Part shown: positions 2-16,521 of the stretch, piece after piece
Position numbering within the stretch: the stretch's first letter is position 1
Layout of the letters: each line of letters starts with the position of its first letter
Notes under the pieces: model-generated
Told to the model about the DNA's origin: nothing
What the model saw: the letters and a program-made list of their open reading frames with translations, nothing else
The model's database searches: none
Translations under genes and position numbers: made by a program
IMG/VR virus record: IMGVR_UViG_3300025669_000020
Location: 1 to 64,000 of that record
Direction: 5' to 3' (one strand)
Source: a virus
DNA: 64,000 nucleotides

Positions 2-1597
2 CAGTGTGGCCATCAGGAACAAGTAGACATCACGCCAGGGAAGCCTGGTCAGGGCGGTGTCCCCCTTCAGGTCAGTACTGTCCCCCTGGAGGGAGAGGAT
101 GAGGGCGGAGAGGGAGAGGGAGAGGGAGAGGGCGAGGGCGAGGGCGAGGGAGAGGGCGAGGGTGAGGGCGAAGGCGAAGGCGAAGGCGAGGGTGAGGGAG
201 AGGGAGACGGAGAGGGAGAGGGAGAGGGAGACGGAGAGGGCGAGGGCGAAGGCGAAGGCGAAGGAGAGGGAGAGGGAGAGGGAGACGGAGAGGGCGAAGG
301 CGAAGGCGAAGGCGAGGGAGAGGGAGACGGAGAGGGCGGAGGTGAGGGCGGAGGTGAGGGAGACGGAGACGGAAAGGGTTCAGGGGGGGACAAGGATGGG
401 GACAAGGACGGAGATGGACACAAGGACGGGGGCAAGGACGGGGGCAAGGAGGAGGGCTCGGGTGAGCAGGGGGAGGCTGCCCAGGACAATGACGGGGATG
501 CCCAGGACGCGGATGGGGGCAGTGCAGGTGGTCACCATTGGGATCCAGATGAGATGAATCCCTGGGAGTCTCTGGCTCAGGATCTTCTGAACGACTCGGA
601 GGGGCTGGGGACGCTGGATGTGACCGATGCCTTGAGCACGGGAGTAGAGGACGCCTGGGACAAGGAAGAGGAAACCTGCAAGCCTGGCGAGAACTCTTGG
701 AGACCCTACACCACTCGACATGACAAGATTCTCGTGGTGGGGCCCTCCGCAAAGGGCAAGGCAGATGATGTGGAGCGGTCCCGGCAGCTCCTGGACTCAG
801 TGCGGCGGGAGTGTGTGTTCTTCTTGGCTCGGCTTCGTTCCATCGTGCTGGCAATGGCCCAGCGGAGCACCTACCACGGGCTCCCAAGGGGGAGGGACAT
901 TTCGGAGAGGATGCTGGTGGAGTCCGTGTCTACCATGCGAGCCGGGAAGAAGCCCACACGCGCCTACTACGAGGTGGGCACCCAGGTGGACATCTCCATG
1001 TCTGCCGTCGTGCTGGTGGATGAATCCAGCTCCATGAAGGGGGATGAGACGGACACCGCCCGCAGCCTGATGACCATTGCCTCGCCTCTGGACTCCTTGG
1101 GATGCCCCACTCTGGTCTTGGGTTTCAGGGATGGCCCCAGGGCGCGTGCAGAGGGTCCTGTCCCCCCTGGCTGCCACCGCACCGAGGGTGTCTGCATCGA
1201 CGTGTTCAAGAGCTTCCATGAAAACTTCACCGCTACCCGCTGGCGCTTCGCCAACATCAGGGCCACGGGTGGCACTCCCATGTCGGATGGTATCCAGATG
1301 GGTCTCCAGGCTCTGATGGAGCGTGCAGAGGCTCACCGCGTGCTGTTCATTATCACGGACGGGGGGCCCAATTGGAGCCATCGTCCTGTTGTGCAGCGGC
1401 AGATTCGTCTGGCCAAGGAAGCGGGCATCCACGTGATCGGGGTGGGGATCGGGCCTGGCTCCACCTACGTTAAGACCCTATTCCCTGACCATGTGTGGGT
1501 TTCGACAGTGGGGGATTTGCCCTTGGCTCTGAGCAAGAAGATGAATCTGATTATGGACTGGAGAGGGCTTCCCCGCAGATCTGTACGTTTGGACTAG
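2..1597 (+). CDS. CobT-like vWA domain protein with acidic Gly-Glu linker (5' end outside window)
   Basis: The frame is open from base 2, so the N-terminus lies upstream of the window; 531 residues are visible. In order they are about 30 residues of unknown character, a Gly-Glu/Asp linker (near residues 30-125), a Lys/Asp/Gly-rich stretch, and a C-terminal von Willebrand factor A domain. The vWA metal site is complete: DESSS in [11 protein letters not shown], the Thr of [10 protein letters not shown] and the Asp of FIITDGGP. An acidic linker followed by a C-terminal vWA domain is the layout of CobT, which works with the AAA+ protein CobS in aerobic cobaltochelatase; the next gene encodes such an AAA+ partner. 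The ATG at 554 has no clear ribosome binding site and would discard the linker, so I do not use it. The vWA call is firm. The cobalt-chelatase role is inferred, because MoxR/vWA pairs also act as general protein-remodelling chaperones. Confidence 0.85.
89..376 (+). repeat. Low-complexity Gly-Glu coding repeat
   Basis: Nearly 290 bases of GAG/GAA/GAC and GGN codons alternate as a (Gly-Glu/Asp)n tract inside the CobT-like gene. The purine-only coding strand also leaves long proline/serine-rich open frames on the other strand, which are artefacts. The tract is expected to be disordered and strongly acidic, like the linker in bacterial CobT. Confidence 0.9.
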
Positions 1598-1643
1598 CTG
1601 TTCCAAGGCCCCCTGTCGGGTATAGGACATCATGGAGGCCTGT

Positions 1644-2876
1644 ATGGGCAAAGCCGTGTGCCGAATTTGCGGATACGAGGGTCACTGGCTCGGGGACCAT
1701 ATGGTGGACGAGCATGAGCTGTCCCTGGGTGCCTACCTGAAGGCATACCCTGGAGCTGCAACCGCTTCGGAACGGCTCGTGGCGTTGTGGGAAGACCGCT
1801 CCAAAGATGCCGAAAGAGCACATCCCGCCGCTACGGAGTCCTTGAAGATCACCTTCTGCGGCATCCCTGTACCCGTCAACCCTGATGTCCCTATGGATGC
1901 CTGCTTCCCTCTCCCCACCGCGTTCAGGGTGCCTGCCCATGGGGATCTCAAAGAGGATATCTGGCACGCAGTGGTGGCTATGGTTCGTGGGAGATCCCTT
2001 TACATCCATGGCCCCCCAGGGTGCGGGAAGGATGCTCTGTTCCACGGGTGGTCGTACATGACGCGGGCTCCTGCGGACATCTACAACATCGATCCCGATG
2101 CCGACCTCCGCCCCTGGTTCTTCAGCCACGAGATCACGCAAGAGGGGACTGTGTGGCAGGAAGGGAAGCTCCTGCAGCAGCTTCGGGATGGGTATGTGTC
2201 CCCCACGAGCGGACGCCGTATCCCCTATCTCATCCTCATCACGGATTTCGACCGTGCCACCAAGGCCCAGGTCGAGACCCTGCGGCTGGTTCTGGACTCC
2301 ATCCAGGGTCGTATCAAGGGGCCGAACGGAATCACCTACCGAGTCCTACCGGGCACCCAGATCGTCGTGACCGCAAACACGGCTGGTGGTGGCGATCCCA
2401 GGGGGCGGTGTATCTCCGCGAACATCATCGATGCCTCCATCATGGACCGCTTCGGGGACATGGGCGCTCGGGCTTTCGAGTTCCACCCGATGGCATGGGA
2501 GGATGAGGGTCTCATCGTCCGAGAGAAATTCCCCCTCCTGGTGGAGCGGTGTAACGATGTGTTCGAGCAGGTGGGAAAAGCAACCACAGCTCTCCGGAAA
2601 GCTGTGGCAGATGAGAGGTTGTATGCGGAGTTCACCCACCGATCCCTCTGTGCATGGCTGGGCCACACGGAGGACATCATCCGTGTGACAGGTGCCGTAC
2701 CCCAGAACATCCTCAAGGAAGCCCTGCGAGCTGTGGTGGACAAATTCGGGGATACCCACACCCGCCAGGAAGCCATGGGCATCATCGACCCCTTCATCCA
2801 GGGAGGGGTCGTAGAAGTCGGGGATACAAGCCACATCCAGAAGGAAAAGCTTTCTGAACTCATGGATGCACTGTAG
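1644..2876 (+). CDS. cobS: CobS-like AAA+ ATPase with N-terminal C2H2 zinc finger
   Basis: A 410-residue AAA+ ATPase of the MoxR/CobS type. The N-terminus has a short zinc finger (C6-x2-C9, then H19-x4-H24) of the kind seen in phage CobS and MucR-like proteins. The ATPase core has Walker A GPPGCGKD (residues 123-130), Walker B-like LILITDFD, a sensor Asn in VTANTAGG and a DRFGD segment. It probably remodels a target together with the vWA protein encoded immediately upstream (46 bases away), as CobS does with CobT. I chose ATG 1644 because GGAGG sits 5 nt upstream; ATG 1632 (414 residues) has a weaker AGGA. No CobN homologue is visible in the window, so cobalt insertion itself cannot be claimed. 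Confidence 0.85.
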   Translation: MGKAVCRICGYEGHWLGDHMVDEHELSLGAYLKAYPGAATASERLVALWEDRSKDAERAHPAATESLKITFCGIPVPVNPDVPMDACFPLPTAFRVPAHGDLKEDIWHAVVAMVRGRSLYIHGPPGCGKDALFHGWSYMTRAPADIYNIDPDADLRPWFFSHEITQEGTVWQEGKLLQQLRDGYVSPTSGRRIPYLILITDFDRATKAQVETLRLVLDSIQGRIKGPNGITYRVLPGTQIVVTANTAGGGDPRGRCISANIIDASIMDRFGDMGARAFEFHPMAWEDEGLIVREKFPLLVERCNDVFEQVGKATTALRKAVADERLYAEFTHRSLCAWLGHTEDIIRVTGAVPQNILKEALRAVVDKFGDTHTRQEAMGIIDPFIQGGVVEVGDTSHIQKEKLSELMDAL

Positions 2877-3511: not shown

Positions 3512-4327
3512 ATGACCCTCTACTGGGCCACACTGGATACGAACCCTCCCCACGCATCTTTGTGGGAGAGGGAGACCCCCGAAGAAGCAGATCCCGTGTG
3601 TGGGCCGTGTCCGCACCGGGATTTCTGCATGGGGAATCGATGGAATGAGCATGGTGGGCCCACGGACAAGGGAGACATAACCAGCGTCCACACCTGTTCC
3701 CTCTGTGCCGAAAAAGTGCTCTCCGCCTACACAGATGATGCCGAGGACAGGATGGTGCCTGACGAGTGCCGCAGGTGGAGACCTGACTTCGGCAGTGCAT
3801 GCGAGTGCAATGGCTGTATGCAAGAGCGGCAAGAGCTGGACAGGCTACATCCCTCATACGAAGCCCGCATGGGGGCTGTGCGCCACTTCATGCAAGCTCT
3901 CCTCGTGGAGAAAGAAGAACGGAGTGCGGACATCAGAAAGGTGGCTCGGGAGATGGCACAGGCCACAACACCCATGGCACACCTCCCCATCACGGGCAAT
4001 TTCACCCCAGCCTCCAAGGCCCTGGGTGTCATCATGGGACTCGTGCTATCCCACAAGGTGCTCCACGAGGCATGGGACGCCCTCGAAGACTGGCGGCAGG
4101 TGGAGGCAAAGTACAAGTGGCTGGAAGCCCTGCATTTGTCTCTGGGACGCCACAAGAGCGATCTGGGCAAGGTACTGCACGAGTTCCGCTTCGCTCTGAC
4201 GGATGTCGTCACTATCCGCAGGGTCTGGTATACGATCCCGCCCCAAGAGCGTAAAGCCATGATGCGGCTGTGGGAACAACGGCTCCGGGCGGGGCTCGGT
4301 AAAGAGTCCCCGCTGCCAGAGAGTTAG
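3512..4327 (+). CDS. Cysteine-rich hypothetical protein, probable zinc-binding N-terminus
   Basis: A 271-residue protein of unknown function. The first third contains several cysteine pairs (CGPCPHRDFC, CSLCAEK, then ACECNGC) typical of structural zinc or metal clusters. The rest is helical, with long charged amphipathic stretches. I start it at ATG 3512, one base after the previous stop codon, rather than the in-frame ATG 36 bases earlier that would overlap the upstream gene. Its 3' end overlaps the Nudix gene on the other strand by 4 bases, closing the plus-strand cluster. Confidence 0.75.
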   Translation: MTLYWATLDTNPPHASLWERETPEEADPVCGPCPHRDFCMGNRWNEHGGPTDKGDITSVHTCSLCAEKVLSAYTDDAEDRMVPDECRRWRPDFGSACECNGCMQERQELDRLHPSYEARMGAVRHFMQALLVEKEERSADIRKVAREMAQATTPMAHLPITGNFTPASKALGVIMGLVLSHKVLHEAWDALEDWRQVEAKYKWLEALHLSLGRHKSDLGKVLHEFRFALTDVVTIRRVWYTIPPQERKAMMRLWEQRLRAGLGKESPLPES

Positions 4328-5025
4328 CCCTTGAGGAAGCTGTAGACCGCTGCCCTCTTGGTCGTCGTGGCTCGGAACCCCGGTGCCTTCTCGATGATCC
4401 CATCCGACTGCATCCGGCGGAAGCGGCGGTAGAAGTTCTTCACCGCGAAATCATCGCCCTTCACCACGGCATAGACAGCCCGTAGCTCGGCCACGGTGAA
4501 CGTGGGGGGGAGCAGCTCGAAGGCGATGGGGCTGTAGTCGATCTTGCCCCGGATCCTCTCCACACCCATCCGCAGAATCTCGGGGTGGTCGAAGGCCACT
4601 TCCATGGCAGGCAGTTCCTGCTGCACAGAGAACCAGCGGGCATCGGAAGCGTCATCACCAGCCTTGACCGTGAGAGCCAAGTGCGGAGGGACGAGGGCGA
4701 AGTAGGCGACCGTGATGACCCTGGTACGAGCATCACGGGATGCCTTTCCGAAGGTGTAGAGCTGCTCCAGGTAGCAGGAGCCTTCTGGGAGGCTGGTTTC
4801 CTCTGCAAGCTCCCTGTGGGCAGCCTGCTCCACGTCCTCGCCTTGTTGGTCTTGGGCATTGCCCACGTCCACAAAGCCGCCTGGGAGCGCCCAGCAGCCC
4901 TTGTAGGGGTGTCCCCGGCGCTGTACGAGCAGCACCTTCAGATCATTGTCGAGGATGGTGAAGATCACCAGGTCAACGGTCACGATCTCAGCGTCGTGGC
5001 TGAGCTTTCCGCTCTGATCTGTCAC
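4324..5025 (-). CDS. Nudix hydrolase with C-terminal winged helix (NrtR/ADP-ribose pyrophosphatase-like)
   Basis: A 233-residue protein with an N-terminal Nudix domain and a C-terminal winged-helix domain, the layout of the NAD-metabolism regulator NrtR and its ADP-ribose-cleaving relatives. The Nudix box is readable (GGFVDVG, then a Glu seven residues before RELAEETSL), with the metal-binding REL-x-EE retained and an insertion between the first Gly and the Glu. The last 80 residues (from about SPIAFELLPP) contain the winged helix with a basic NFYRRFRRMQ helix. The retained acidic residues suggest it may still cleave ADP-ribose or a similar nucleotide. It is the last gene of the vWA-phosphatase-kinase operon and lies 5 kb from the NAD salvage operon, so a role in NAD or ADP-ribose sensing is a reasonable inference. 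Confidence 0.85.
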   Translation of the reverse strand: MTDQSGKLSHDAEIVTVDLVIFTILDNDLKVLLVQRRGHPYKGCWALPGGFVDVGNAQDQQGEDVEQAAHRELAEETSLPEGSCYLEQLYTFGKASRDARTRVITVAYFALVPPHLALTVKAGDDASDARWFSVQQELPAMEVAFDHPEILRMGVERIRGKIDYSPIAFELLPPTFTVAELRAVYAVVKGDDFAVKNFYRRFRRMQSDGIIEKAPGFRATTTKRAAVYSFLKG

Positions 5026-5522
5026 AGCAGCTCCATGGTGAAGTCGTGGTTGTTGCTACGCAGAACCCTCCGAAAAACACGGGCCGCTGCGACACCCCTG
5101 ACATCAAGGATGGCACCCCCATCGACATTGAACCGGAACTTGGCAACACCCTTGTCACCACGAACGAGGGGCTCATGGTAGAGTGCGGTCCTGAAGTCCT
5201 GGAAGGTGGCATCAGGGATGTCCACCTGGGTCAGCTTCTGGCCGAACCTGGACTTGGGTGGAGCCTTGGGTGGAACCACCACCTTGGGCTTGGGTGGTCC
5301 CTTGTAGTAGAAGTTCAGCAGCTCGAAGGCACGCCTTGCCCTGGGGTCATGCTCACCCCGGATCAGATCATGGTAGTGGGGCTTCAGGATGTGGTGCTTC
5401 CAGTGGAGGATGTCCGCACCGGGGGCTGGTGCCTTCAGTCTCACGATTTCGAAGCACTCATCCCAGGTGTAGGTCATGGTGGGGTTGCTGGGAAGATGGC
5501 TGAAACAGGGGATTCCGGTCAT
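5022..5522 (-). CDS. Hypothetical protein in kinase-phosphatase operon (166 aa)
   Basis: A 166-residue protein of unknown family between the kinase-like and Nudix genes; it overlaps the Nudix start by 4 bases and begins 4 bases after the kinase stop. The N-terminal half looks like a small helical module (DECFEIVRLKAP, ILHWKHHILKPHYHD, RRAFELLNFYYKGPP) reminiscent of J-domain-like repeats, but the HPD signature is absent. A Pro/Lys linker separates it from a C-terminal domain. The start at 5522 is supported by an ATGAGG sequence 7 nt upstream; an internal Met at residue 16 is the alternative. Confidence 0.7.
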   Translation of the reverse strand: MTGIPCFSHLPSNPTMTYTWDECFEIVRLKAPAPGADILHWKHHILKPHYHDLIRGEHDPRARRAFELLNFYYKGPPKPKVVVPPKAPPKSRFGQKLTQVDIPDATFQDFRTALYHEPLVRGDKGVAKFRFNVDGGAILDVRGVAAARVFRRVLRSNNHDFTMELL

Positions 5523-5526
5523 GGGG

Positions 5527-7224
5527 TTACCTCATTTTCATGTGGACGACAGTGTTTCCTCTCAGGAACACTACCCGTCCAGTGTGCTTGTGGAGCCGCA
5601 TGTCCGCTCCCAGCACAGGATCCTTGACCACCTTGACACCCGTAGCTCCGCGCTTCCTGGAGAACAGTTCCAAGTCCTCATCCTCGTTGATGGAGGCACA
5701 CACACCAGAGTCCAGGGACACGAAGTTCAAGCCCATGGGGGTGGTGTCGGAGATGACGCGGACATCGTAATCCTGGTAGTCATTGCTGAACCGGAACACG
5801 AGTCGGTCGTACTTGCCCTTCTTGGCTGCAACGACCATGAGCACGTTCTTGTCGGCCTTGGCGTCCGTGATGCGGTATCCGTCCAGCTCCTTCAGGTGGA
5901 CATGGTAGCTGAGGCCCAGGGAGGGGAACGTCGTGGCGTAGGTCGCTCCCATCATGTTCTGGAAACACACCCCTGGGTAGAGCGTTGTCGCATTGGGCAG
6001 GCAGGAGGCAGCCACCCGCGTCGTGGCAAGGAGCCTGCTGCCGATCTCCGTCAAGAGGATTTCCACGATCTGGTTATCCACCTTGAGGTAGATGCCACCG
6101 TCCGTGGACATCGCCTGATCTGCAAGCAGGGGCACCTCGATCTGCTTTTTGTCCACGGTGTCAAAGAGCTGGAGCCGCTGGGACTCCAACCAGCCCACCA
6201 CGGGCTTGTTCTGCTTGGGGGTGAACACTGCCCCCACGAGGTTCTGGACGGCGGGCCCCACCTTGTACTTGTCCCTGTAGATGCCATCCGCACACACAGA
6301 GACTACGGAGCCCATGTGTTCCCAGGTTCCCATGAGGGTGCTCCCCAGAGCCAGGAGATCCTTGAACACGAGGTTCTGCGTCCCCGAGAGGGTACGGATG
6401 ATGGGGGTGATGATGATGGCTCCGGAGAAGTCCGTGGGGGGAGCCATGCGCTTGCCATCCCGAAGGACAGCCTTGTACCACTCCAGGTAGATGGAGGGGA
6501 TCACATCCAGGGGGTAAACTGCCTTGGGCAGCTTGACAGCGGAGTCGAAGACAGAGATGCCTGCCTGCATCCGGTCTTCCATCTTTCGGATGCTGGGGTG
6601 CTTGCCCTTGAAGGGGTGGATGCCTGTGAAGAGCTGGAAAGAGACACAGGCGAACCCGAACCAGTCCGACCCCTCGGAGAAGCGGTTGTGCGTGACCTGT
6701 GGGTCCTTCACGGAAGCCATGATGGCTGTCGCGGGGTAGCGGCGTGTCTGGTAGGAGGCTGCATCGATGGCGAAGACATCATCGAATTTCTTGCCCACCA
6801 GGAAGTTCATCTCGTTGGGGTCTACCAGCAGGACACCCGCCCTGTGGACAGAGTCGAAAATCCCCCGCAGGTTCTTCACCAGCTTTTGGATGTGGTCAGG
6901 GGTGATCCCGTGCCTGTTGCGGAACGGGGGTGGGAACAACTGGCAGAGAACCCATACATCCTCTCCAGCCTTGCCCAGGAACTTCATCGTGTGCCCGACA
7001 GGGCGACCCCGACTGTCTAGCAGAAGCCTCTCAGGTTTGATGACGTGGGGATCATGAATGTCCCCCAGCTCTTGCATCTTCCCCAGGGGGATCATGTTGG
7101 CGGGGTCCTTGTAGACCCTGTACGCCACATTGCCTTGTGCGTACACCTCAGCCTCTCCACCGCTGGCTACGAAGTCCTGCTTGGAGAGGTTGACGGTGCC
7201 CTGGCCCTGGACTGTGAGCTTCAT
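5527..7224 (-). CDS. Protein kinase-like protein of the vWA-PP2C-kinase triad (YegI-like)
   Basis: A 565-residue protein whose first 220 residues form a divergent Ser/Thr protein kinase. Visible motifs are a glycine loop SGGEAEVY (21-28), a Lys in RVYKD (39), a catalytic-loop equivalent VDPNEMNFLV (Asp135, Asn140), a metal-binding Asp154 in AIDAASYQ, and helix F SDWFGFACVSFQLFTGIHPF (187-206). The HRD motif is replaced by VDP, as in YegI-type kinases. The remaining 340 residues look beta-rich and may be a propeller-like sensor or docking domain. The start ATG overlaps the phosphatase stop (ATGA), which ties the two together in translation. The expected role is to phosphorylate a partner, with the PP2C protein reversing it. 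Whether the kinase is active or a pseudokinase is not settled by sequence. Confidence 0.85.
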   Translation of the reverse strand: MKLTVQGQGTVNLSKQDFVASGGEAEVYAQGNVAYRVYKDPANMIPLGKMQELGDIHDPHVIKPERLLLDSRGRPVGHTMKFLGKAGEDVWVLCQLFPPPFRNRHGITPDHIQKLVKNLRGIFDSVHRAGVLLVDPNEMNFLVGKKFDDVFAIDAASYQTRRYPATAIMASVKDPQVTHNRFSEGSDWFGFACVSFQLFTGIHPFKGKHPSIRKMEDRMQAGISVFDSAVKLPKAVYPLDVIPSIYLEWYKAVLRDGKRMAPPTDFSGAIIITPIIRTLSGTQNLVFKDLLALGSTLMGTWEHMGSVVSVCADGIYRDKYKVGPAVQNLVGAVFTPKQNKPVVGWLESQRLQLFDTVDKKQIEVPLLADQAMSTDGGIYLKVDNQIVEILLTEIGSRLLATTRVAASCLPNATTLYPGVCFQNMMGATYATTFPSLGLSYHVHLKELDGYRITDAKADKNVLMVVAAKKGKYDRLVFRFSNDYQDYDVRVISDTTPMGLNFVSLDSGVCASINEDEDLELFSRKRGATGVKVVKDPVLGADMRLHKHTGRVVFLRGNTVVHMKMR

Positions 7225-8093
7225 GACTGCTCCACCGGCTCGGTGAGAGTGATGCCTGCTGCTGCCACGTCGTCGTAGTGCTGCCATTCCAGCCGGGGGA
7301 CAGCCCTCTCCAGGAAGCGCTTCATCCGCTTGGTCACGAAGGGCCCCTTCAGACTCTTCATGGCTGTCATGTGGGACATGACCTCCAGGAACGGGACAGG
7401 CTCGAAGGTGCCCGGTGCCACCTTCTTCTGGAAGGACTCCACCCCGTCAGAGCACACCATGACGAAATCGTACTCCTGGGCAGGGAAATCCACCACCCTC
7501 CAGAAGCCTTGGGGGCTCAGGGTCCCATCCTCCCCGATGCGGTAGGAGACATCTCCCGTCTCCGTGTCCTGGTGAACACCGTCCAGAGTGCGGTACATCG
7601 CCCAGCTGTTGTAGCCCTGGTCGATATACCTATCCAGACGCTCCTTCTCCAGCGTGTAGGTCAGGTAGCCAGGAGCCACGAGCCCCGATTCACCTGGGAG
7701 GAACAGCATCCTCCAGATCTCGATCTCTCCCGTGCGACGCCGGGCAGCCAAGGCACCGTCACCCACCAGGAAGGCCCGCACGTCACCATTGGCCTTCTGG
7801 AACAAGGTCATGAGGGTGGCATCCAGGCAGGTGTGCGGGAGCCGCATCCCTCGGGCAGCACTCAGAGCCTGCCACACCACACCAGAGGGCTCGAAGAAGT
7901 CTCCCGAGAGCATCATCCGCTCTTGGGCGGCGATGGTCATGAGCCGGGAGCCAAAGTCCGTGTCGGGGGATGAGGAACACCCGTCCGATACGATAGCGAA
8001 GGCTCTGCCATCGGGCAGCAAACCTGCCCTGGCGTAGTCCTCGCAGACCCTGTGAGTCTTCCCGATGCTAAAATGGGCGTCCGCAGTTGCCAC
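7221..8093 (-). CDS. PP2C-family protein phosphatase
   Basis: A 290-residue PP2C (PPM) phosphatase. Metal-binding motifs are visible as VSDGCSSS (Asp37-Gly38), VGDGALAA in the centre and VCSDGVESF near the C-terminus, and a DDVAAAGI segment supplies the last conserved Asp. I start it at a GTG preceded by AAGGAG at 9 nt, just inside the end of the upstream 87-residue gene; longer readings lack protein-like sequence. It overlaps the kinase-like gene by 4 bases and should oppose it, as PphC opposes YegI in Escherichia coli. The role is inferred from family and context. Confidence 0.88.
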   Translation of the reverse strand: MATADAHFSIGKTHRVCEDYARAGLLPDGRAFAIVSDGCSSSPDTDFGSRLMTIAAQERMMLSGDFFEPSGVVWQALSAARGMRLPHTCLDATLMTLFQKANGDVRAFLVGDGALAARRRTGEIEIWRMLFLPGESGLVAPGYLTYTLEKERLDRYIDQGYNSWAMYRTLDGVHQDTETGDVSYRIGEDGTLSPQGFWRVVDFPAQEYDFVMVCSDGVESFQKKVAPGTFEPVPFLEVMSHMTAMKSLKGPFVTKRMKRFLERAVPRLEWQHYDDVAAAGITLTEPVEQS

Positions 8094-8331
8094 CGGAGGA
8101 TGCTCCTTCGGCGTACTCAACCTCGTCTGAGGGGTACACCATGGTGAGGTGATGTTCCGAGAAGACCGCCACGTAGTCCTCCCGCAGCACCACGAAAGCG
8201 TTCTGTAGAATGAAGGTGGAGCCGTCCATGTGGTGCAGCTCCACCTCATTCCCGAACCGGGGGTCATCAGCCAGGAGCGTGAGCTTGTAGGCTATCACCC
8301 AGGTGAGAACTTCCTGGTAGGAGTCTGACAT
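8068..8331 (-). CDS. Small hypothetical protein between vWA and PP2C genes (87 aa)
   Basis: An 87-residue acidic protein, coupled at both ends: its ATG overlaps the vWA stop by one base and its 3' end overlaps the phosphatase start. It begins with a helix (SDSYQEVLTWVIAYKL) and continues with short beta-like segments (VELHHMDGSTFILQNAFVVL). I recognise no family. Its fixed place inside the signalling triad makes a regulatory or adaptor role likely, but nothing in the sequence proves that. Confidence 0.75.
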   Translation of the reverse strand: MSDSYQEVLTWVIAYKLTLLADDPRFGNEVELHHMDGSTFILQNAFVVLREDYVAVFSEHHLTMVYPSDEVEYAEGASSGGNCGRPF

Positions 8332-9101
8332 CAGATAGCCAGGGAGCTGGGATCGATGGTCTGGCTCGGGCCACCCGTCCCGAGGGACTGCGACTGGCTG
8401 GAGATGGACTGGCTGACGAAAGCGACCAGGGTGGGAATGTGGTCGAGATCCGCGTACTGGTCGAAGCCCACGTCCTTGTTGAACTTGTCCAGGTAGTCCT
8501 TGACGTACTGGTTGGGCGTGTTGACCCCGATGAGGATGGACAGGACGCTCTCCAGCCCTTCCTCCGCGTCGGGACCACCATGGACACCACGCGCCTTGTC
8601 CAGGGCATCCTTGACGGCGTGCATGGAGCAGGTGGAGTCGTTGTCCAGGCCATCCGTGATCACGAAGACGATGGCGTTGGCGGTCAGATCCTCGTCCTTG
8701 TACATCCGACGACCGTAGTCATCGGCGGAGGAGACACTGGACACGGCGGCGTCATAGAGCTTGGTGCTGTGCCCCACGATCTTGACCTGGCCGGTGTAGT
8801 CGCTGGGGTTGATGGACATCAGCTCGCGGAAGCCGTGGATCTCGCCCAGGCGGGAGTCGAAGGTGATGACCCGCAGGAGGAGGTTGTCGGCGCGGGGGAG
8901 CTTCCGGCACTTCTCCACGATCTCCTTCAGGCCATCTTCGATCTGCTGGCGGAAGGGGGACACGGAGGGGGAGGTGTCGAGAGCGATCACGACGATGGTG
9001 TACTCCAGGGACTCCAACTCATCGACGCCGACGCCGGAGTAGCCGAAGGTGGTGCCACCGATGGTAGCGGAGGACTGCTGCATGGACTGTGAAGGGCTCA
9101 T
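8331..9101 (-). CDS. vWA domain protein (TerY/YegL-like)
   Basis: A 256-residue protein consisting mostly of one vWA domain with an intact MIDAS: DTSPS at residues 42-46, a Thr/Ser-rich loop around HSTKLYDAAV and VITDGLDND further on. The C-terminal tail is Ser/Gln-rich and probably flexible. Stand-alone vWA proteins of this size encoded beside a PP2C phosphatase and a YegI-like kinase define the TerY-P and yegL-pphC-yegI sets of bacteria. It is the first gene of the minus-strand operon, so a promoter should lie between 9102 and about 9180; I could not find a convincing one. Confidence 0.85.
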   Translation of the reverse strand: MSPSQSMQQSSATIGGTTFGYSGVGVDELESLEYTIVVIALDTSPSVSPFRQQIEDGLKEIVEKCRKLPRADNLLLRVITFDSRLGEIHGFRELMSINPSDYTGQVKIVGHSTKLYDAAVSSVSSADDYGRRMYKDEDLTANAIVFVITDGLDNDSTCSMHAVKDALDKARGVHGGPDAEEGLESVLSILIGVNTPNQYVKDYLDKFNKDVGFDQYADLDHIPTLVAFVSQSISSQSQSLGTGGPSQTIDPSSLAI

Positions 9102-9160: not shown

Positions 9161-10100
9161 GTGAGAGGTCGGAAATGGACACATGAAGAAGTCACGCAGT
9201 TTTTCAGGGAACAGGGGTGTGAGCTTTTGTCCCCAGAGTACAAAAACTCCAAACAAAAAACTGCTCTACCGCTGTGATTGTGGATCTGAAGCCCGTGTAG
9301 AGTTCCGAAACTTCAAACATAAGGTTCTCAAGGGTGTGAATCGGGGCTGCCCAGCGTGCACGGTTCGGAAGATGTTGGAGACAACACAAAATCGGAATGG
9401 GGGACTCCACCATTTCCAGACTTCGGAATTCAAAGAGTCCCGCAAAAAGACTTTCTTGGCACGTTATGGTGTTGAGAACCCTCTTCAAAACGCTGGTGTC
9501 CGTGAAGATCGTCGTCAGACCTGCATGACAAGATACGGGGTACCCTCTGTCTCCCAAGTCCCTGAAATCCAAGCACGGCAGCGACAAGGGTTTCAAGACA
9601 AGTACGGGGTTTCGCATTTCATGCACGTGCCAGAGAGCAGAGAGAAATGGAAGCAAACACTTCTCCGGCGATATGGAGTTCCTTCCCTGGCCTATCTGAG
9701 CCGGTGTGCTTCCAAGGAGAGTCAGACTCTTTTTTGGGAGATATGGAACAACCTCCCCCTTGAGCTTCAGGCTAAATCCTACTTTGCGGAGCACGGGGGT
9801 GAATTCAACGTCTCTTTCCAGGGACAGTTTTTCAAGTTTGACTTTGTCCAGAGCCGCATCCACAAAGCCATTGAATACAATGGATGGAATTTCCATCCCA
9901 AGCCTCATCAAGATCCCCAGGAGGCGGGGTGGTGTGCTTTCCACCCCACCCTGACTGTGAAGGCCGCCCGTGCCCGGGAGGCTCTGAAGTACGAAGCCCT
10001 GGAGCGTCGGGGCTTTCAGATTCTCACCGTATGGGATAGAGACAGACATGGGGATCCTGAGGGGGTGGTTCAACAGTGCCTGGACTTCTTACTCACTTGA
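9161..10100 (+). pseudogene. Homing endonuclease-like protein, frameshifted (VSR-like C-terminus)
   Basis: A free-standing mobile-type nuclease in two frames. The first frame starts at GTG 9161 (AGGAGG upstream) and encodes KWTHEEVTQFFREQGCELL; the next frame continues with LLYRCDCG and runs to 10100. Removing one A from the A6 run at 9255-9260 fuses them into about 312 residues. The N-terminus has a treble-clef zinc site (CDC, CPAC), then four repeats containing RYGV or KYGV, then a C-terminal domain with DFVQSRIHKAIEYNG that resembles VSR/PD-(D/E)XK nucleases. It sits alone between two minus-strand operons, a typical homing endonuclease position. The shift could be a true inactivating mutation, transcript slippage on A6, or a sequencing indel. 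An ATG at 9183 would give a 305-residue protein lacking the proper N-terminus. Confidence 0.75.
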
Positions 10101-11007
10101 GAAGAGCCCGAGCCTCCTGCGTCGTCATCAGAGCAGCCCCACGATCCTTCATCCACTGGAGAAACTCCGTACCCTGATCCTCGAAGGTGGAGACAGAGGA
10201 AGCACAATCCGTAAGAACGGTAATCTTCTTGACGTGTTCCGGGCTGGAAAAAGCTGAAACCGTATCCTTGCCTGTGTGGCACAGGCAGTGGGACAGAGCC
10301 TGGCCCGCCAGGAACACCTTGTCCATCTTCTCCAGGGTAGCGACCCACCCCGCGTTCAGCTGGGTGCCGGGATCGTTGGGGAGCTGCACCTCGGCCTGCA
10401 CGGCGCTGAAGTGCTCCGTGAAGGGGTTGGAGCCCTTGGCGACGAAGTTGAGGGTGCGGGCACGGTTGCGGGCCCAGTTCTGGGCTGCCTCCATGAAGGC
10501 GGGGTACACGTTGGCACCGGCGGTTCCGATCAGGCAGTGTTCCGGCCAGATCACGTGGGCGTAGCGGTTCTTGGCGGTGAGCTGCTGGATGTACCAGGCG
10601 GTGTAGCCGTGGAAGGTGAGGGCCTTGCCGCCAGTCAGGGCTGCCGTCCAGGGGATCTTGCCCATCTTGCGGGTGCGGAACTTCCGGCTGTTCTGGTAGT
10701 CAGGGAACAGGAGACCGACGAAGGTGTCATCCGTCTCGTTGTAGGTCATCACCGTGAGGGGGGGCGCGGCATCACCGTTCTCATCCGCGAACCACAGGCC
10801 ATGGGCGATGTCCAGGTCGTGGTGCTGGTCGAGGGTGATGTGGATGTCATCCAGGTGACCGCTGATGTCGTTGGTGAAGCCAGCCAGGCGTTCCATGTCC
10901 TCCTGGGCACCGGGTACGCAGAGGGAGCCCTGGGGGAGCCCGTAGGGGTTGGTGTCAGAGGCACAGAAATCGTTCTGTGGGTCGATAGCGACGAGGGCGA
11001 CGCGCAT
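10093..11007 (-). CDS. pncA: Nicotinamidase (PncA-like)
   Basis: A 304-residue cysteine hydrolase of the isochorismatase fold, predicted to convert nicotinamide to nicotinic acid. Catalytic residues are visible: Asp9 in DPQNDF, Lys191 in FVAKGSNP and Cys241 in GQALSHCLCHT. Metal ligands are present in LDQHHDLDIAH and the typical substrate-side segment is WPEHCLIGTAG. The protein is longer than bacterial PncA (about 210 residues) because of an insert between residues 75 and 130. The start at 11007 has CTGGAG 8 nt upstream; longer frames read through low-complexity sequence. It is the last gene of a four-gene NAD operon. Its end overlaps the homing endonuclease-like gene by 8 bases, convergently. 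Confidence 0.92.
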   Translation of the reverse strand: MRVALVAIDPQNDFCASDTNPYGLPQGSLCVPGAQEDMERLAGFTNDISGHLDDIHITLDQHHDLDIAHGLWFADENGDAAPPLTVMTYNETDDTFVGLLFPDYQNSRKFRTRKMGKIPWTAALTGGKALTFHGYTAWYIQQLTAKNRYAHVIWPEHCLIGTAGANVYPAFMEAAQNWARNRARTLNFVAKGSNPFTEHFSAVQAEVQLPNDPGTQLNAGWVATLEKMDKVFLAGQALSHCLCHTGKDTVSAFSSPEHVKKITVLTDCASSVSTFEDQGTEFLQWMKDRGAALMTTQEARALLK

Positions 11008-11080: not shown

Positions 11081-11299
11081 TTACTTGAAGCAGGTGCCCC
11101 GACAAATGAGGCGACCGCAGAAGGCACAGTGGCCTCGGGAGCTTTCGTAGAGGGGGAAGGCAGCGTTGGGGTCTTCGATGTCGGCAGGCCCTGGGATTCT
11201 CTCACCGCGGTCATCTCGGACGATGGTGCCGTTTGCATCGGTGAGCCAGGTGTTGCCATCTCTGTCAAAGGTGTGGCGGATGTCTCGGCCGTCTTTCAT
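11081..11299 (-). CDS. Small zinc-finger-like protein in NAD operon (72 aa)
   Basis: A 72-residue protein with a charged, beta-like N-terminus (a DRDGN-type turn motif) and a C-terminal cysteine cluster HCAFCGRLICRGTC, which looks like a small zinc site. The ATG at 11299 follows the NadE stop by 4 bases and has GGGGTGA upstream. I know no function. Its position between NAD synthetase and nicotinamidase suggests an accessory role in the operon, but that is context only. Confidence 0.65.
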   Translation of the reverse strand: MKDGRDIRHTFDRDGNTWLTDANGTIVRDDRGERIPGPADIEDPNAAFPLYESSRGHCAFCGRLICRGTCFK

Positions 11300-11303
11300 G
11301 GGT

Positions 11304-12362
11304 TCACCCCAGGGAGATGGGGAGGTAATTGGTGAGGATGCCCCGTGCCACGAAGTCCTCACGACTCCCGTACATGGGGCAGTTGGGGTTGATCTTGTGG
11401 CGGGTGCGGCGTTCCGCCCGCCGTGCGGCACGAAGGATGTCTCCGACGCTCTGGCTCGGAATGCCCGCGAAGAGGGGGCTGTCCTGGGCAACGCGGGTCA
11501 GGTAAGCGATGGCGGTGGTGTTCAGCTGCTCACCGAACAGGAGTGCCTCGTGGGGGATACCCCAAGCCAACGTGTAGTCCAGGAAGCGGCTGACCCGCTC
11601 GATGGTGCCCACCGTGAGGTACTCACCCGTAGCAGGACTCACCGTGGAGTAGGTGAAGTTGGCACCCGTCCAGGTCTTCAACTCGCTCTCATCGCGGGTG
11701 TCACCACCCGCCCAAAGGTCGTGCTGGGGGGCCACTTCGATGATGGGTCGCATGGCGCGGGCCACATCCGGTCCCATCTTGTCCCCGAGACCCACAGCGA
11801 GCTGGTAGACCTCGCCCTTGGAGAGCATGGCCATGGGGTTGCAGTCCACTTCACCGTCCCCACCCTTCTGATAAAAGCGGAGGTAGCGGTCTTCGCATTC
11901 GTTCCCGGTACCCAGGCGGATACCGTTGCCCGTCATGCGGTTCAGACCGCGACCGATGGGAGCACGGATGCAGGAGCGCATGGAGCCCAGAACAGTGGGG
12001 TCCTTCGCGATCCGCGCCTTGACCTGTTCCAGGGTTTCCTCGTCGTAAGCGTCCCCGATCCCACGGAGCATCTCGGCTACCACGCAGGAGAACACTTCGG
12101 TCAGATCGAGGCTGATCAGGGGGACTTCCAGAGCGTCCGCGAGATCCTGAGCCTGCTTCTGCATGGCATCCTGGGAGGAGATGCTGGAGAAGCAAGCCGT
12201 GATGTTGTCGGGACCGACCGCGAGGACGGCGAGGGCCAGCATGACGGCGGAGTCGATCCCACCGGACACGTCCAGCTCAATACGACTACCACAGCAGGCA
12301 GCGGCATCCCTGATGGCGGAAACGCGGTCTTCGATCAGGCCACTGACATTGGTGACAGGCAT
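11304..12362 (-). CDS. nadE: NAD synthetase (NadE), ammonia-dependent type
   Basis: A 352-residue protein that should amidate nicotinic acid adenine dinucleotide to NAD using ATP. The PP-loop SGGIDSA is at residues 33-39, and the downstream signature GTGNECEDRYLRF, then GDGEVDCNPMAML, matches NadE. The N-terminal glutaminase (nitrilase) domain of glutamine-dependent enzymes is missing, so ammonia is the likely nitrogen donor. The protein is longer than the 275-residue bacterial ammonia-type enzyme, with extra sequence after residue 95. It lies 5 bases downstream of the PncB-like gene in the same operon. Confidence 0.93.
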   Translation of the reverse strand: MPVTNVSGLIEDRVSAIRDAAACCGSRIELDVSGGIDSAVMLALAVLAVGPDNITACFSSISSQDAMQKQAQDLADALEVPLISLDLTEVFSCVVAEMLRGIGDAYDEETLEQVKARIAKDPTVLGSMRSCIRAPIGRGLNRMTGNGIRLGTGNECEDRYLRFYQKGGDGEVDCNPMAMLSKGEVYQLAVGLGDKMGPDVARAMRPIIEVAPQHDLWAGGDTRDESELKTWTGANFTYSTVSPATGEYLTVGTIERVSRFLDYTLAWGIPHEALLFGEQLNTTAIAYLTRVAQDSPLFAGIPSQSVGDILRAARRAERRTRHKINPNCPMYGSREDFVARGILTNYLPISLG

Positions 12363-12367
12363 GTGAA

Positions 12368-13909
12368 TTAACCCTGGGTGGTCAGGAGGGAGAGGGTGCG
12401 GGTGGCAGACCCAGCGCGGATGCCGTTGCGCTCATGGGTGAGCACGCTGATGAGGTGCTTGGTCGCGGGGCTGTGTTCGGAAGGCCCCTCCAGCCCCTCG
12501 GGGATGCCCTGGTAGAAGGAACCCTCTCTGCCACCCGACAGGACTTCGTAGCCGCCACCGGGGGGGAGCTTCTCACCGTGCTGGGCGATGTAGGAGTGGG
12601 GGCCTTCGACGGAGGGATCGACCTTGCGGAACAGGCGGGAGAGTCCTGGAAGGCTGGACTTGGGGCCCGCCACCTTGGGATCCACCTTGTTGTCCGAGAA
12701 CTTCATGGTGTCGCGGGAGCCGGTCCTGCAGAGCTTCCACACAGCGCTGGCCTCACTCCGAGTGGGGAGCGGGAAGGGGGGCTCTACGGCATACTGCCCG
12801 TACATGTAGGACTGCCGGTTCTCGGGCCACAGCAGGGCACGCCGCATCTGCTCGAACTTCTGGGTGGTCTTGAGGTTGAACCCACCACCCAGGTTCAACA
12901 CGGGGCTCAGGCGGAAGCCCATGAACATGAGGATCGCGGCGGCGTAGTCCTCTACCATGGTGTCTTCGGAGTCGAACCGCACCGCGCACAGACGGTCACG
13001 GGCCTCGGCCATCGCCTTCGTGGCTGCGGGGATGCCGCTGTCCTGCGTGGAGATGGTGTCCAGCAGGAAGGTTGGGACGCCTGCAGCGCGGTCACGGGCG
13101 GTGGTGAAGGCTTCATAGTCGGGGTCCTCCCCGATGCCGCACCGCTGGTGGTGTTCGTGGCCGGTGGTGCCACGGGGCGTCATGCCCAGGCGCATGGCAC
13201 CGTAGACATTGCTGGTAGCCTCGAACCCTGCGGCCTGGCAGGCGCTGAGAGCGATCAGGTGCTGCTCCATGCAGGAGGCTGCTCGGAGCCCCGCTTCCAG
13301 GACCTTGCCAGAGCCCACGGCATCAACCAGCTCCTTGGCGCGGGCGTAGATGTGGTCGTAGTAGCCCTGTCGGTCGACCTTGATCTTGAACTCGATCTCG
13401 ACGTTCACCGTATCCAGGGTCTCCAGCACGATCTCCCGCTCGCGGTCACAGGTGACGGTGCTGAAGTGGTACTGAAGGGTTTCGGGTTCGATCAAGGCGA
13501 TGGTGGCGGTCTGGATGCGGAAGCGGAGCATGGTCAGCTTGGCTTCCAGGTAGCTGACGAGGGCACTGGGGCCGGTCACGGTCAGCACAGGGTCATTGGC
13601 GGAGAACCACCGACCCTTGGGGACACCGATGACCTTCACGGAGCCCTTCATCGCCTGGACGTAGGCGGGGCCCATGGGGAACCCCTGTTCCTCGATGTAG
13701 GACAGGTCAGACTGCCTCACGGTGGGGAGCAGGCTGTTGACGTATTCCACGGGGTCGACCGGCATGACGTAGGGGCCACCGCGCCGCATCTGGAACACGA
13801 AGGTCTCTTCCCGGAGGGGGTAGCCTACCCAGGCCATGAACATCTTGTACCAGTCGGTTTCCAGGATGGATGGCTTGCGGGGAACGACGGGATCGCGGTC
13901 GAGGTTCAA
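12368..13909 (-). CDS. pncB: Nicotinate phosphoribosyltransferase (PncB-like)
   Basis: A 513-residue member of the NAPRT/NAMPT family, expected to join nicotinic acid to PRPP and give nicotinate mononucleotide. The N-terminal ILETDWYKMFMAW matches the TD-x-YK substrate motif of the family, and the central GTTGHEHHQRCG carries the conserved His. Near the C-terminus LNLGGGFNLKTT is a phosphate-binding-type loop. I start it at a TTG with AAGGA 6 nt upstream, since no ATG fits; ATT three bases upstream is less likely. It heads the NAD operon behind a sigma-70-like promoter. NAMPT activity on nicotinamide is possible, but a nicotinamidase in the same operon favours nicotinic acid as substrate. Confidence 0.88.
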   Translation of the reverse strand: MNLDRDPVVPRKPSILETDWYKMFMAWVGYPLREETFVFQMRRGGPYVMPVDPVEYVNSLLPTVRQSDLSYIEEQGFPMGPAYVQAMKGSVKVIGVPKGRWFSANDPVLTVTGPSALVSYLEAKLTMLRFRIQTATIALIEPETLQYHFSTVTCDREREIVLETLDTVNVEIEFKIKVDRQGYYDHIYARAKELVDAVGSGKVLEAGLRAASCMEQHLIALSACQAAGFEATSNVYGAMRLGMTPRGTTGHEHHQRCGIGEDPDYEAFTTARDRAAGVPTFLLDTISTQDSGIPAATKAMAEARDRLCAVRFDSEDTMVEDYAAAILMFMGFRLSPVLNLGGGFNLKTTQKFEQMRRALLWPENRQSYMYGQYAVEPPFPLPTRSEASAVWKLCRTGSRDTMKFSDNKVDPKVAGPKSSLPGLSRLFRKVDPSVEGPHSYIAQHGEKLPPGGGYEVLSGGREGSFYQGIPEGLEGPSEHSPATKHLISVLTHERNGIRAGSATRTLSLLTTQG

Positions 13910-13952
13910 AATGAATCCTTGCGGGCTGTGTGGAATACTTCCGACATGGAAA

Positions 13953-13981
13953 GATTTACTCCAACCACGGAGGGGTGTCAA
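13953..13981 (-). promoter_or_regulatory. Sigma-70-type promoter of the NAD operon
   Basis: Reading on the minus strand: TTGACA (complement of 13976-13981), 17 bases, then TAAATC (complement of 13953-13958), about 43 bases before the PncB-like TTG start. A consensus -35 with ideal spacing indicates recognition by host sigma-70, so early expression is likely. Confidence 0.7.
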
Positions 13982-14706: not shown

Positions 14707-15116
14707 GCCTCCCCATCAAACCATGGGCAAAGGGTTCCTTCCCAGAGGGGGAGGGTGTGATCCTCGAAGTGTGGCTGTGCCGAGCCCCCACAGGGCAGAT
14801 GTTCGCCATGCACCGACCACAGAGCAAGGAAGACCACGAGATGCTCATGTCGTGGCCTTCTGGGGGTCTGGAGCAGGCTGCGGTAGGGCTCCTGACCGAA
14901 GCAGTCAGGCGTGAGGCGATCCTCGACATTCTCATCAAGGAGACAAAAGAACCCGGCTTCATCCAGGAGTTGACCGAGATGGAGCCGGGAGATCGGGATG
15001 CTTGGGCTCAGGAAATGGCAGAGCAGCTGCAAGCACTACTGGGCAAGACCGTGAAAGACCTGGCCCCTGGTGCTTTCAAGGACGCTTTGGAGATGATGCT
15101 TCCCCGCGACGGGTAG
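14703..15116 (+). CDS. Hypothetical protein (137 aa)
   Basis: A 137-residue protein translationally coupled (ATGA) to the deoxynucleoside kinase. The first half reads as beta strands (VILEVWLCRAPTGQMFAMHR); the second half is acidic and helical. I recognise no motif. Its last 40 bases overlap the convergent coiled-coil gene. Confidence 0.7.
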   Translation: MSLPIKPWAKGSFPEGEGVILEVWLCRAPTGQMFAMHRPQSKEDHEMLMSWPSGGLEQAAVGLLTEAVRREAILDILIKETKEPGFIQELTEMEPGDRDAWAQEMAEQLQALLGKTVKDLAPGAFKDALEMMLPRDG

Positions 15117-16521
15117 CAGCCTGCTTGTAGGCCATCTGCCGGAACACATCGGGGTTGGCCTTCAGCCACAGCTGGTGATGTGCCCTGTTGCAGAAGAACT
15201 GCTGGGTCTTGCTCCGTGCCACCTCCCCTGCAGTCTTGGACACGGGGGCACCACAGTGGTCACAGGTCACAGTGACCCTGCCCTTGGGGGCTGAGGGCTT
15301 GGCGATGAGTTGGGGCTCTTCCCTGACCAGAGTGATGGCAACGGCATCCCGCTGCTTCCTGCGCCACAGTGTGAAGTGCTCGGGGCAGCAGTAGAAGTGT
15401 CCGCTCTTGTTCTTCTTGGCATCACCGGGGAGCTTGTAGAAGGGGTCGTCGCAATAGGAGCACACCACCATGATACGCGGAAGTGGGTTTCCAGCCCGAA
15501 GGGCTGCCATCTGCCTCGCTGATTCGAGACGGATCATGGGAAGTTCTGTCGTCTTGAGGAGGGCCTGGAGGGACTGTATCGTGGCCAAGCCATCCACCCG
15601 TTCCTGTTGAAGTTCCAGGATTTGGGTGTCGATAGCTACCATGCGTTCCTGGGCAATCTGGATGTCAGTCTTGGCAGCCTGGATGGTAGCCATCACCCGC
15701 CGCCCTTCTACCCTCTGGAGTTCCCGCTGCCGTTCAGCCTCTGCTGCCTGACGAAGTTCCTCATCCTTGCGGCGCTGTTCTGCCTCGGCTTGGAGGCGGG
15801 CTTCCTCAGCCTCCTTCTCTAGCAGAAGCCGAGCCTTTTCTTCCAGAAGCCGAGCCTTTTCTACCAGGAGGCTGCCATCTTCGTCCTTTTGCTTCCGCCG
15901 AAGCTCGATCTCCTGCATATGGCGCTGTGTCTCCAACACCTTGCGGGCGATCTCCTGCTTACGGCGCTGGATCTCCTGCCCAATGCCCTCCGCCCCTGTC
16001 TGCTGGTTCTCTGCCTTTTCAGTTGCGATCCGCCTCTTCCGATCCGCCTCTTCCTTCTGCATCCTGAAAGCCTCCGTCTTCTTCTTGTCCTTCTCATCCC
16101 GCTGCAACCTGACCTTCTCCGCGAGATGTACCCTGTCTGCGGCTTCCCTGGCTCCCCTGGCTTCGATTGCTGCCTTCTTGCGAGCAACAGCGGCGGCATC
16201 GAAACCCTGTGCCATCTTGTCCTTCAGGGGCTGGGCGACCTTCCACTCCTTCAACTGCTTTTTGTATTCCGCCTCGATGTTCTGCTCCCCATAGATCCTC
16301 TTGCCACACATGTAGCACTTGACCATCATGGCCCCCCCTCGCACATAGGAGCCGTAATCCCGCTCCGCGTTGAGGTTCTCACTCCCACATTTGGGGCAGG
16401 CCATCTTGAAGTTCATGAATTTCCCTGTGTGCAGCCCACACCACCCCGGAGATGGAGTGTTGTATAGGTTGAAAGCCTGCAAAGGCTCAACCAGCTGCAT
16501 TTGCCCCTGCATCTTATCCAC
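15076..16521 (-). CDS. Coiled-coil protein with N- and C-terminal zinc fingers (481 aa)
   Basis: A 481-residue protein with a zinc ribbon at the N-terminus (CPKCGSEN, then KCYMCGKR), a long charged coiled coil or single alpha-helix between about residues 90 and 330 (many Arg/Lys/Glu runs such as EEKARLLLEKEAEEARLQ), and two related C-terminal treble-clef-like fingers: CSYCDDPF with FYCCPEHF, and CDHCGAPV with FFCNRAHH. It resembles no enzyme I know. Such a layout suggests a scaffold or nucleic-acid tether. The first codon is GTG 16521; ATG 16512 or 16500 are alternatives because no strong ribosome binding site decides. It is transcribed divergently from the C39-like peptidase. Confidence 0.75.
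   Translation of the reverse strand: MDKMQGQMQLVEPLQAFNLYNTPSPGWCGLHTGKFMNFKMACPKCGSENLNAERDYGSYVRGGAMMVKCYMCGKRIYGEQNIEAEYKKQLKEWKVAQPLKDKMAQGFDAAAVARKKAAIEARGAREAADRVHLAEKVRLQRDEKDKKKTEAFRMQKEEADRKRRIATEKAENQQTGAEGIGQEIQRRKQEIARKVLETQRHMQEIELRRKQKDEDGSLLVEKARLLEEKARLLLEKEAEEARLQAEAEQRRKDEELRQAAEAERQRELQRVEGRRVMATIQAAKTDIQIAQERMVAIDTQILELQQERVDGLATIQSLQALLKTTELPMIRLESARQMAALRAGNPLPRIMVVCSYCDDPFYKLPGDAKKNKSGHFYCCPEHFTLWRRKQRDAVAITLVREEPQLIAKPSAPKGRVTVTCDHCGAPVSKTAGEVARSKTQQFFCNRAHHQLWLKANPDVFRQMAYKQAATRRGEASSPKRP

Follow-up and report, generated by a model that had tools for sequence, protein, structure and literature searches.

The functional unit in this region of a huge-phage genome is a tetrad of genes, which encode the nicotinamidase PncA, a vWA protein, a phosphatase of the PP2C type and a kinase with a C-terminal beta-propeller. 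The tetrad lies in a 64-kb window (the whole stretch of DNA analyzed, out of a 105.6-kb phage record) together with further genes of NAD synthesis. With moderate confidence, we read the tetrad as part of a phage operon for NAD+ salvage by the Preiss-Handler route, controlled by NrtR and by the vWA-PP2C-kinase set, with which the phages would keep or rebuild NAD+, probably against NAD+-cleaving immunity.

A preliminary description of the sequence had put forward as the unit six tightly overlapping minus-strand genes at 4324–9101. All six open reading frames are present: vWA (8331–9101), u87 (8068–8331), PP2C (7221–8093), kinase (5527–7224), u166 (5022–5522) and an NrtR-like gene (4324–5025). 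Overlaps at the vWA/u87, PP2C/kinase and u166/NrtR junctions are consistent with a single operon, but some starts need trimming. For PP2C, the most probable start is GTG 8093, which follows AAGGAG, rather than 8267, and the kinase gene begins at ATG 7224, overlapping the PP2C stop, rather than at 7287. The same-strand run goes on upstream of 9101, which the preliminary description had missed, with pncA (10093–11007, its start moved to ATG 11007), a probably real gene for a 72-residue CxxC protein (11081–11299; homologue in locus L049, 2.5e-30), nadE (11304–12362) and pncB (12368–13981). Between pncA and the vWA gene, on the plus strand, 9183–10100 encodes a putative mobile endonuclease (DUF7487 plus an MTES_1575-like REase; PF24308, 5.6e-29). 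Homologues occupy the same junction, also on the opposite strand, in loci L016 and L034, and we regard this gene as an insertion outside the tetrad system. No convincing defence-system call was made by PADLOC; the kinase and Nudix proteins matched weakly only.

As a unit, the six-gene set did not hold, since relatives keep pncA-vWA-PP2C-kinase instead. The 87-residue u87, an accessory protein to which no function could be assigned, had two matches, both distant, among ~160 loci, and the 166-residue orphan u166 had neither a family match nor a homologue in these loci. The third supposed core partner, the NrtR-like protein, is optional. The constant partner is the nicotinamidase.

The product of 10093–11007 is a predicted nicotinamidase and the constant fourth partner of the vWA-PP2C-kinase set. 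Its top NCBIfam match is nicotinamidase (NF008623, 2.9e-9), with a score of 37 bits where the cut-off is 174. When the PncA profile was compared with yeast Pnc1 (1.8e-12), the catalytic Asp, Lys and Cys and the Zn-ligand Asp, His and His all aligned. All 67 phage homologues and all 62 bacterial ones keep these six residues.

Linkage of the tetrad was analyzed in 80 phage loci, found in IMG/VR with an alignment query of the kinase (a single-sequence query gave no match there), and in 80 further loci, all cellular, from a genome search. The linkage is strongly conserved in related phages, as the preliminary description required: the order pncA-vWA-PP2C-kinase was present in 56 of 67 non-redundant phage loci, and several others held all four genes in shuffled order. 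In a reverse search anchored on PncA, all four genes were present in 69 of 79 loci. The 80 cellular loci contained vWA (65), pncA (62), PP2C (60), nrtR (40), pncB (25), nadE (18) and nadD (10), as well as NAD kinase and ADP-ribosylglycohydrolase (four loci each); PP2C is missing from some loci of Myxococcota type, which keep pncA-vWA-kinase. pncA and vWA lie no more than 100 bp apart in 44 of 63 loci from phages and in 55 of 62 from cells. A recurrent "cluster 7" in the phage loci resembled antisense open reading frames over GC-rich genes.

The tetrad members co-inherit as a unit, unlike PncB and NadE. Distance-matrix correlations were 0.64–0.76 among tetrad members and 0.16–0.34 with pncB/nadE. 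Related huge phages account for many of the loci, and window neighbours such as a MoxR-vWA pair are likewise common to the clade of the window phage, so the four genes might stay together through common ancestry only, in an ordinary auxiliary-metabolism cassette. We consider this highly improbable. In cells of many phyla the four genes also form tight clusters, and their linkage persists through reshuffled gene orders, with both forward and reverse scans opposite to what unlinked members would give. In addition, at least 12 changes between phage and cell are needed on the kinase tree, and the members remain undispersed although foreign genes are often interposed between them. The presence of the tetrad in cellular loci of many phyla also excludes a phage-specific origin. 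Most likely the tetrad was first cellular and was later reused by phages.

The preliminary description had also suspected a link to nucleotide biology, and the frequent extra neighbours of the tetrad are indeed NAD genes: pncB, nadE, nadD, Nudix/NrtR and NADAR. In the window, PncB is a nicotinate phosphoribosyltransferase-like protein of a divergent huge-phage subfamily (TIGR01513, 5e-19), which would convert nicotinate (NA) to nicotinate mononucleotide (NaMN); its phage-family profile matches nicotinate phosphoribosyltransferases in the PDB with E values down to 1e-117. NadE resembles NAD+ synthases of the NH3-dependent type (PF02540, 9.1e-16; above cut-off in the genome search), without a glutaminase domain and with the P-loop SGGIDS intact. 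The 105-kb record contains PncA, PncB and NadE of the Preiss-Handler pathway; NadD was not found in it. In another phage locus (L047), a single co-directional run, pncB-nadE-pncA-vWA-PP2C-kinase-nadD-nrtR, places the whole pathway around the tetrad. Apart from NADAR and ADP-ribosylglycohydrolase, no immune NADase-related genes recur beside the tetrad.

The NrtR-like Nudix/winged-helix protein was correctly recognized in the preliminary description. Its Nudix domain (PF00293, 2.3e-19) and NrtR winged helix (PF21906, 2e-9) both score above cut-off, and it matches the NrtR equivalog NF050029 at 1.1e-43, under the strict cut-off of that model. The RELAEE core is present; the full Nudix box was not matched. 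NrtR proteins are Nudix-related ADP-ribose-responsive repressors (PMC6800001), and by family membership the window protein is a probable ADP-ribose-responsive regulator of NAD genes. As in NrtR regulons, it adjoins NAD synthesis genes; unlike in those regulons, it is here an accessory of a nicotinamidase-kinase tetrad. It is a frequent accessory and not a core partner: the NrtR winged-helix domain was found in 7 of 28 tetrad-bearing phage records, and nrtR in half of the cellular loci.

Triads of vWA, PP2C and kinase have been known for years, to our knowledge with no clear job. The E. coli YegL-PphC-YegI and TerY-P triads have the same three protein types in matching order, and the kinase domains are homologous. 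Indeed, the window kinase domain aligned with YegI by hhalign (98.8%, 7.8e-17 over 303 columns), in agreement with its earlier designation as YegI-like. YegL and PphC resemble the window vWA and PP2C proteins more weakly; YegL has a similar Ser-rich C-terminal stretch. The set is not the YegI triad proper, since the C-terminal region of YegI is helix-hairpin-helix (HHH_5), in contrast to the beta-propeller of the tetrad kinases.

No nicotinamidase or NAD genes adjoin yegL-pphC-yegI in E. coli. This would fit a triad that does not control NAD enzymes, in which PncA feeds or clears nicotinamide or nicotinate for separate, TerY-P-like stress or defence signalling with its output elsewhere, the NAD genes lying nearby through their common substrate, nicotinamide. 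In line with such an arrangement, pncB and nadE show only loose co-inheritance with the tetrad, and many 10-kb neighbourhoods lack them (22 and 19 of 67 phage loci have them), while the tetrad stays together. Yet in whole tetrad-bearing phage records PncB and NadE are nearly always encoded elsewhere (26 and 25 of 28), with a strong NadD in about half, against 19 matches to PncB and 20 to NadE in a background of 50,697 phage records. The extra neighbours, too, are nearly all NAD-metabolism genes in phages and bacteria alike. We consider separate signalling rather unlikely.

The vWA, PP2C and kinase proteins are encoded together in the phage with largely conserved MIDAS and catalytic residues, which bears out the signalling set proposed earlier. 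For the vWA protein, Pfam/NCBIfam matches to the single sequence were weak (4e-3), but an AlphaFold2 model (pLDDT 89.3) and a fold search confirmed the vWA fold; MIDAS residues D42, S44, S46, T113 and D150 are intact, as previously noted, and a Ser-rich C-terminal helix is near-invariant. The PP2C-type Ser/Thr phosphatase, also rightly assigned, matches PP2C_2 (PF13672, 4.9e-12), and its metal-binding Asp residues are intact: D77, D95, D274, D332 and D333 are kept in 98–100% of 67 homologues.

The Ser/Thr kinase-like protein likewise matched weakly as a single sequence (1.5e-2), and its fold was confirmed by an AlphaFold2 model (pLDDT 91.7) and a fold search, with matches to LRRK2, CaMKII and BamB. 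In the numbering of the 586-residue reading frame, the catalytic residues D156, N161 and D175 are present, and R57 (codon AGG) occupies the beta3 Lys position, which is Lys in 70 of 72 phage rows. With this Arg, the kinase of the window phage itself may be weak or inactive. Kinase-fold AMPylases exist. The high divergence of the kinase (Pfam 0.015), its Arg in the window phage and its NAD-metabolite context might suggest that the protein transfers another group (e.g., AMP, or one of ADP-ribose type) or phosphorylates a metabolite of the nicotinamide pathway, with the PP2C-like and vWA proteins as partners. This seems improbable to us, as nearly all relatives keep the beta3 Lys, the catalytic Asp, the Asn and the DFG Asp, and the kinase is paired with a PP2C bearing all metal-binding Asp residues. 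Moreover, YegI, the closest relative that has been studied, phosphorylates itself on Ser, and PphC removes the phosphate (PMC13232886). The conditions under which E. coli expresses yegI/pphC have never been identified (PMC13232886).

In the salvage operon that we favour, PncA would convert nicotinamide to nicotinate, from which PncB would make NaMN; a phage or host NadD would then form NaAD, and NadE would complete NAD+. Transcription would be set by the NrtR-like repressor answering to ADP-ribose, and activity, at the post-translational level, by the vWA-PP2C-kinase switch, which is co-inherited with the nicotinamidase as a single unit. Gene content, conservation, active sites, linkage and co-inheritance come directly from the sequences; from there we infer the phosphorylation targets, the direction of control and the anti-immune role. 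The kinase, its propeller serving as a docking surface, would most likely phosphorylate the vWA adaptor and/or PncA, the Ser-rich C-terminal helix of vWA being a candidate site. PP2C would reverse the phosphorylation, and the Mg-dependent vWA protein would link the two enzymes, such that nicotinamide entry into salvage tracks cell state. NAD+-cleaving immune systems release exactly nicotinamide and ADP-ribose. Phages would have taken over the cellular unit so as to maintain or restore NAD+ in the infected cell, probably as a counter to such systems.

Phage-encoded NAD+ regeneration from nicotinamide has precedents in NARP1 (Adps plus Namat) and in NadV/NadM/NadR salvage of jumbo phages (PMC12774641, PMC7824862, PMC9503650). 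In contrast to these pathways, tetrad phages would use the deamidating Preiss-Handler route (PncA, PncB, NadD, NadE) together with a kinase/phosphatase unit. The window genes correspond to neither NARP1 nor NARP2 (Adps plus Namat, or nicotinamide phosphoribosyltransferase plus NMN adenylyltransferase): the phosphoribosyltransferase matches nicotinate, not nicotinamide, models, and the only NAMPT match in the window is weak (phrog_448, 3.1e-4). PP2C goes unmentioned in the two jumbo-phage/NAD surveys, as does nicotinamidase in the NAD-virus survey (PMC9503650). Among cultured huge phages, Agrobacterium phage Atu_ph07 and Sinorhizobium phage Phosso have an annotated nicotinate phosphoribosyltransferase, adjoined in Phosso by NAD synthase; a search of both found no kinase, vWA or tetrad-type PncA. 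We found no description of the tetrad in the literature searched, which left out the classic NrtR-regulon, Ter-system and original NARP papers, where it may have been noticed earlier.

More tentatively, at somewhat less than even chances, the tetrad would be an undescribed, widespread controller of NAD homeostasis, shared by bacteria and huge phages, that gates the first step of nicotinamide salvage through reversible phosphorylation; with the full Preiss-Handler pathway, it would give phages a third way, itself regulated, to reconstitute NAD+ in the face of NADase immunity. Being linked to a nicotinamidase amid NAD genes, the tetrad offers a concrete, testable metabolic target for the vWA-PP2C-kinase triad, and it widens phage NAD+ reconstitution to a deamidating route with proposed post-translational control. 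The isolates Bradyrhizobium embrapense and Paraliomyxa miuraensis bear the tetrad, which makes it testable without culture of huge phages. That it recurs in dozens of giant phages, and in many bacteria as well, suggests at the level of sequence that NAD salvage is under a form of phosphorylation control not described before.

The IMG/VR virus record is 105,613 bp long, with the window covering bases 1–64,000, and its phage identity is confirmed by genes for ribonucleotide reductase, UvsX, sliding clamp, clamp loader, terminase and portal. All six minus-strand ORFs of the preliminary description were found at the locus (4324–9101). Domain searches strongly supported the PP2C phosphatase (likely start 8093) and the Nudix/NrtR protein; they were weak for the vWA protein and the kinase (likely start 7224), but predicted structures (pLDDT 89.3 and 91.7, respectively) and fold matches settled both, the kinase matching LRRK2, CaMKII and the propeller protein BamB. 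While correct as an observation, that description overlooked minus-strand genes upstream, identified by domain searches as nicotinamidase-like (pncA, likely start 11007), NAD synthase (nadE) and nicotinate phosphoribosyltransferase (pncB), which change the meaning of the finding. Between them and the six ORFs lies an opposite-strand gene for a putative mobile endonuclease of the DUF7487/MTES_1575 type (9183–10100, plus strand). This type of endonuclease occupies the pncA/vWA junction, on the strand opposite to the module, in three different huge phages (also loci L016, 5292–6251, and L034, 5322–5879, both minus strand), as if homing to the module.

Upstream of the NAD operon lies a gene (15076–16521, minus strand) for a 481-residue protein that weakly matches a Lar restriction-alleviation-like zinc ribbon. 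Adjoining the module (554–2876, plus strand) are genes for a second vWA protein and a MoxR/CobS-like AAA ATPase; immediately ahead of this second vWA gene runs a long low-complexity tandem repeat (57–557), Arg/Glu/Ala-rich in one frame and Pro/Ser in another. Homologues of one or both proteins also lie near the module in loci L014, L016, L021, L047 and L049; MoxR-vWA chaperone pairs have been described in jumbo phages (PMC7824862).

A tblastn search of 50,697 annotated phage records with the kinase matched three huge metagenomic phages, all with the order pncA-vWA-PP2C-kinase (in the third, PP2C was identified with a profile). Profile search of IMG/VR gave 80 phage loci. Among 67 non-redundant phage loci, these three phages included, 56 have the arrangement pncA-vWA-PP2C-kinase; several more contain all four genes in altered order. 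An apparent reshuffled tetrad in L021 was rejected as an over-long ORF call. When scans were anchored on PncA, all four genes were found in 69 of 79 phage loci, most exceptions reflecting contig ends or genes just beyond the fetched stretch. Two phage loci (L230 and L261) carry tetrad-type pncA without a complete triad; the kinase-like sequence of L261 is a fragment of just 154 residues, perhaps a sign of decay.

Frequent non-tetrad families in phage neighbourhoods were pncB (22/67), nadE (19), Nudix/NrtR (15), NADAR (9) and nadD (8); frequent cellular neighbours were nrtR, pncB, nadE, nadD, ADP-ribosylglycohydrolase and NAD kinase. When 28 tetrad-bearing phage records were searched in full, 26 had PncB and 25 NadE, compared with 19 and 20 matches, respectively, among the 50,697 records, a contrast that is qualitative because the two kinds of search differ. 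NadD matched strongly in roughly half of the same 28 records, and 7 of them had an NrtR winged helix. Tetrad-type PncA occurs in 4 of the 50,697 records, 3 of which hold the tetrad. In phage locus L047 (618,736-bp record), pncB-nadE-pncA-vWA-PP2C-kinase-nadD-nrtR all run in one direction.

Distance-matrix correlations were 0.64–0.76 among the four core proteins and 0.16–0.34 between these and PncB or NadE, values that may be lowered by pooling of divergent subfamilies (label-permutation maxima, 0.11–0.25 for all pairs). We conclude that PncA and the signalling genes move together as a single unit, while the lower correlations indicate that other NAD enzymes are exchanged.

PncA residues aligned with the Asp-Lys-Cys triad and Zn ligands of yeast Pnc1 show no variation across 67 phage and 62 cellular sequences. 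The metal-binding Asp residues of PP2C are 98–100% conserved, the vWA MIDAS is intact, as previously described, and phage kinases retain the catalytic Asp, Asn and DFG-Asp at 97–100%. The kinase β3 Lys is present in 70 of 72 aligned phage rows; in the window kinase, codon AGG (7117–7119) places Arg there. This may be natural variation or an error in the sequence, or the kinase may be inactive. Near-invariant serines (S230, S232, S234 and S237) make the vWA C-terminal helix, a stretch modelled with lower confidence, a candidate phosphorylation site.

The nicotinamidase-containing tetrad is widely common to phages and bacteria. Eighty GTDB cellular loci, from Acidobacteriota, Myxococcota, Armatimonadota, Parcubacteria-type groups, Thiotrichaceae, Bradyrhizobium and others, contain vWA (65), pncA (62) and PP2C (60), mostly with intergenic gaps below 100 bp. 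Phage and cellular kinases are intermixed in the tree (at least 12 forced changes by a quick method); some of the binned contigs may be phage sequence assigned to the wrong bin, but several cellular loci lie on 0.5–1.5 Mb contigs. Myxococcota-type loci L132, L134, L135 and L141 show a reduced form, with directly adjoining pncA-vWA-kinase, no PP2C, then nrtR. In L179, L182 and L184, PncA has a conserved domain of ~230 residues fused at its N terminus; that of L179 had no match in a Pfam search. About 14 kb of an 801-kb megaplasmid replicon of Variovorax sp. SRS16 (L203) carries PP2C, propeller kinase, pncB, NADAR, NAD+ synthase and NUDIX genes.

The likeness to yegL-pphC-yegI drawn earlier holds for the kinase domain, which is homologous to E. 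coli YegI, and more weakly for PP2C/PphC and vWA/YegL, but the kinase C-terminal domain differs. YegI autophosphorylates, and PphC reverses this (PMC13232886). Phages are known to make NAD+ through Adps/Namat, or through NadV with NadM/NadR (PMC12774641, PMC7824862, PMC9503650); PP2C is unmentioned in both jumbo-phage/NAD surveys. A search of the accessible literature for nicotinamidase with vWA, PP2C or kinase returned nothing relevant.

The unit is a signalling tetrad that includes a nicotinamidase and sits inside phage-borne NAD salvage; what it encodes, how its genes are linked and which active-site residues it has are documented here. Most likely, reversible phosphorylation gates nicotinamide salvage, the targets and the physiological role being inferred.
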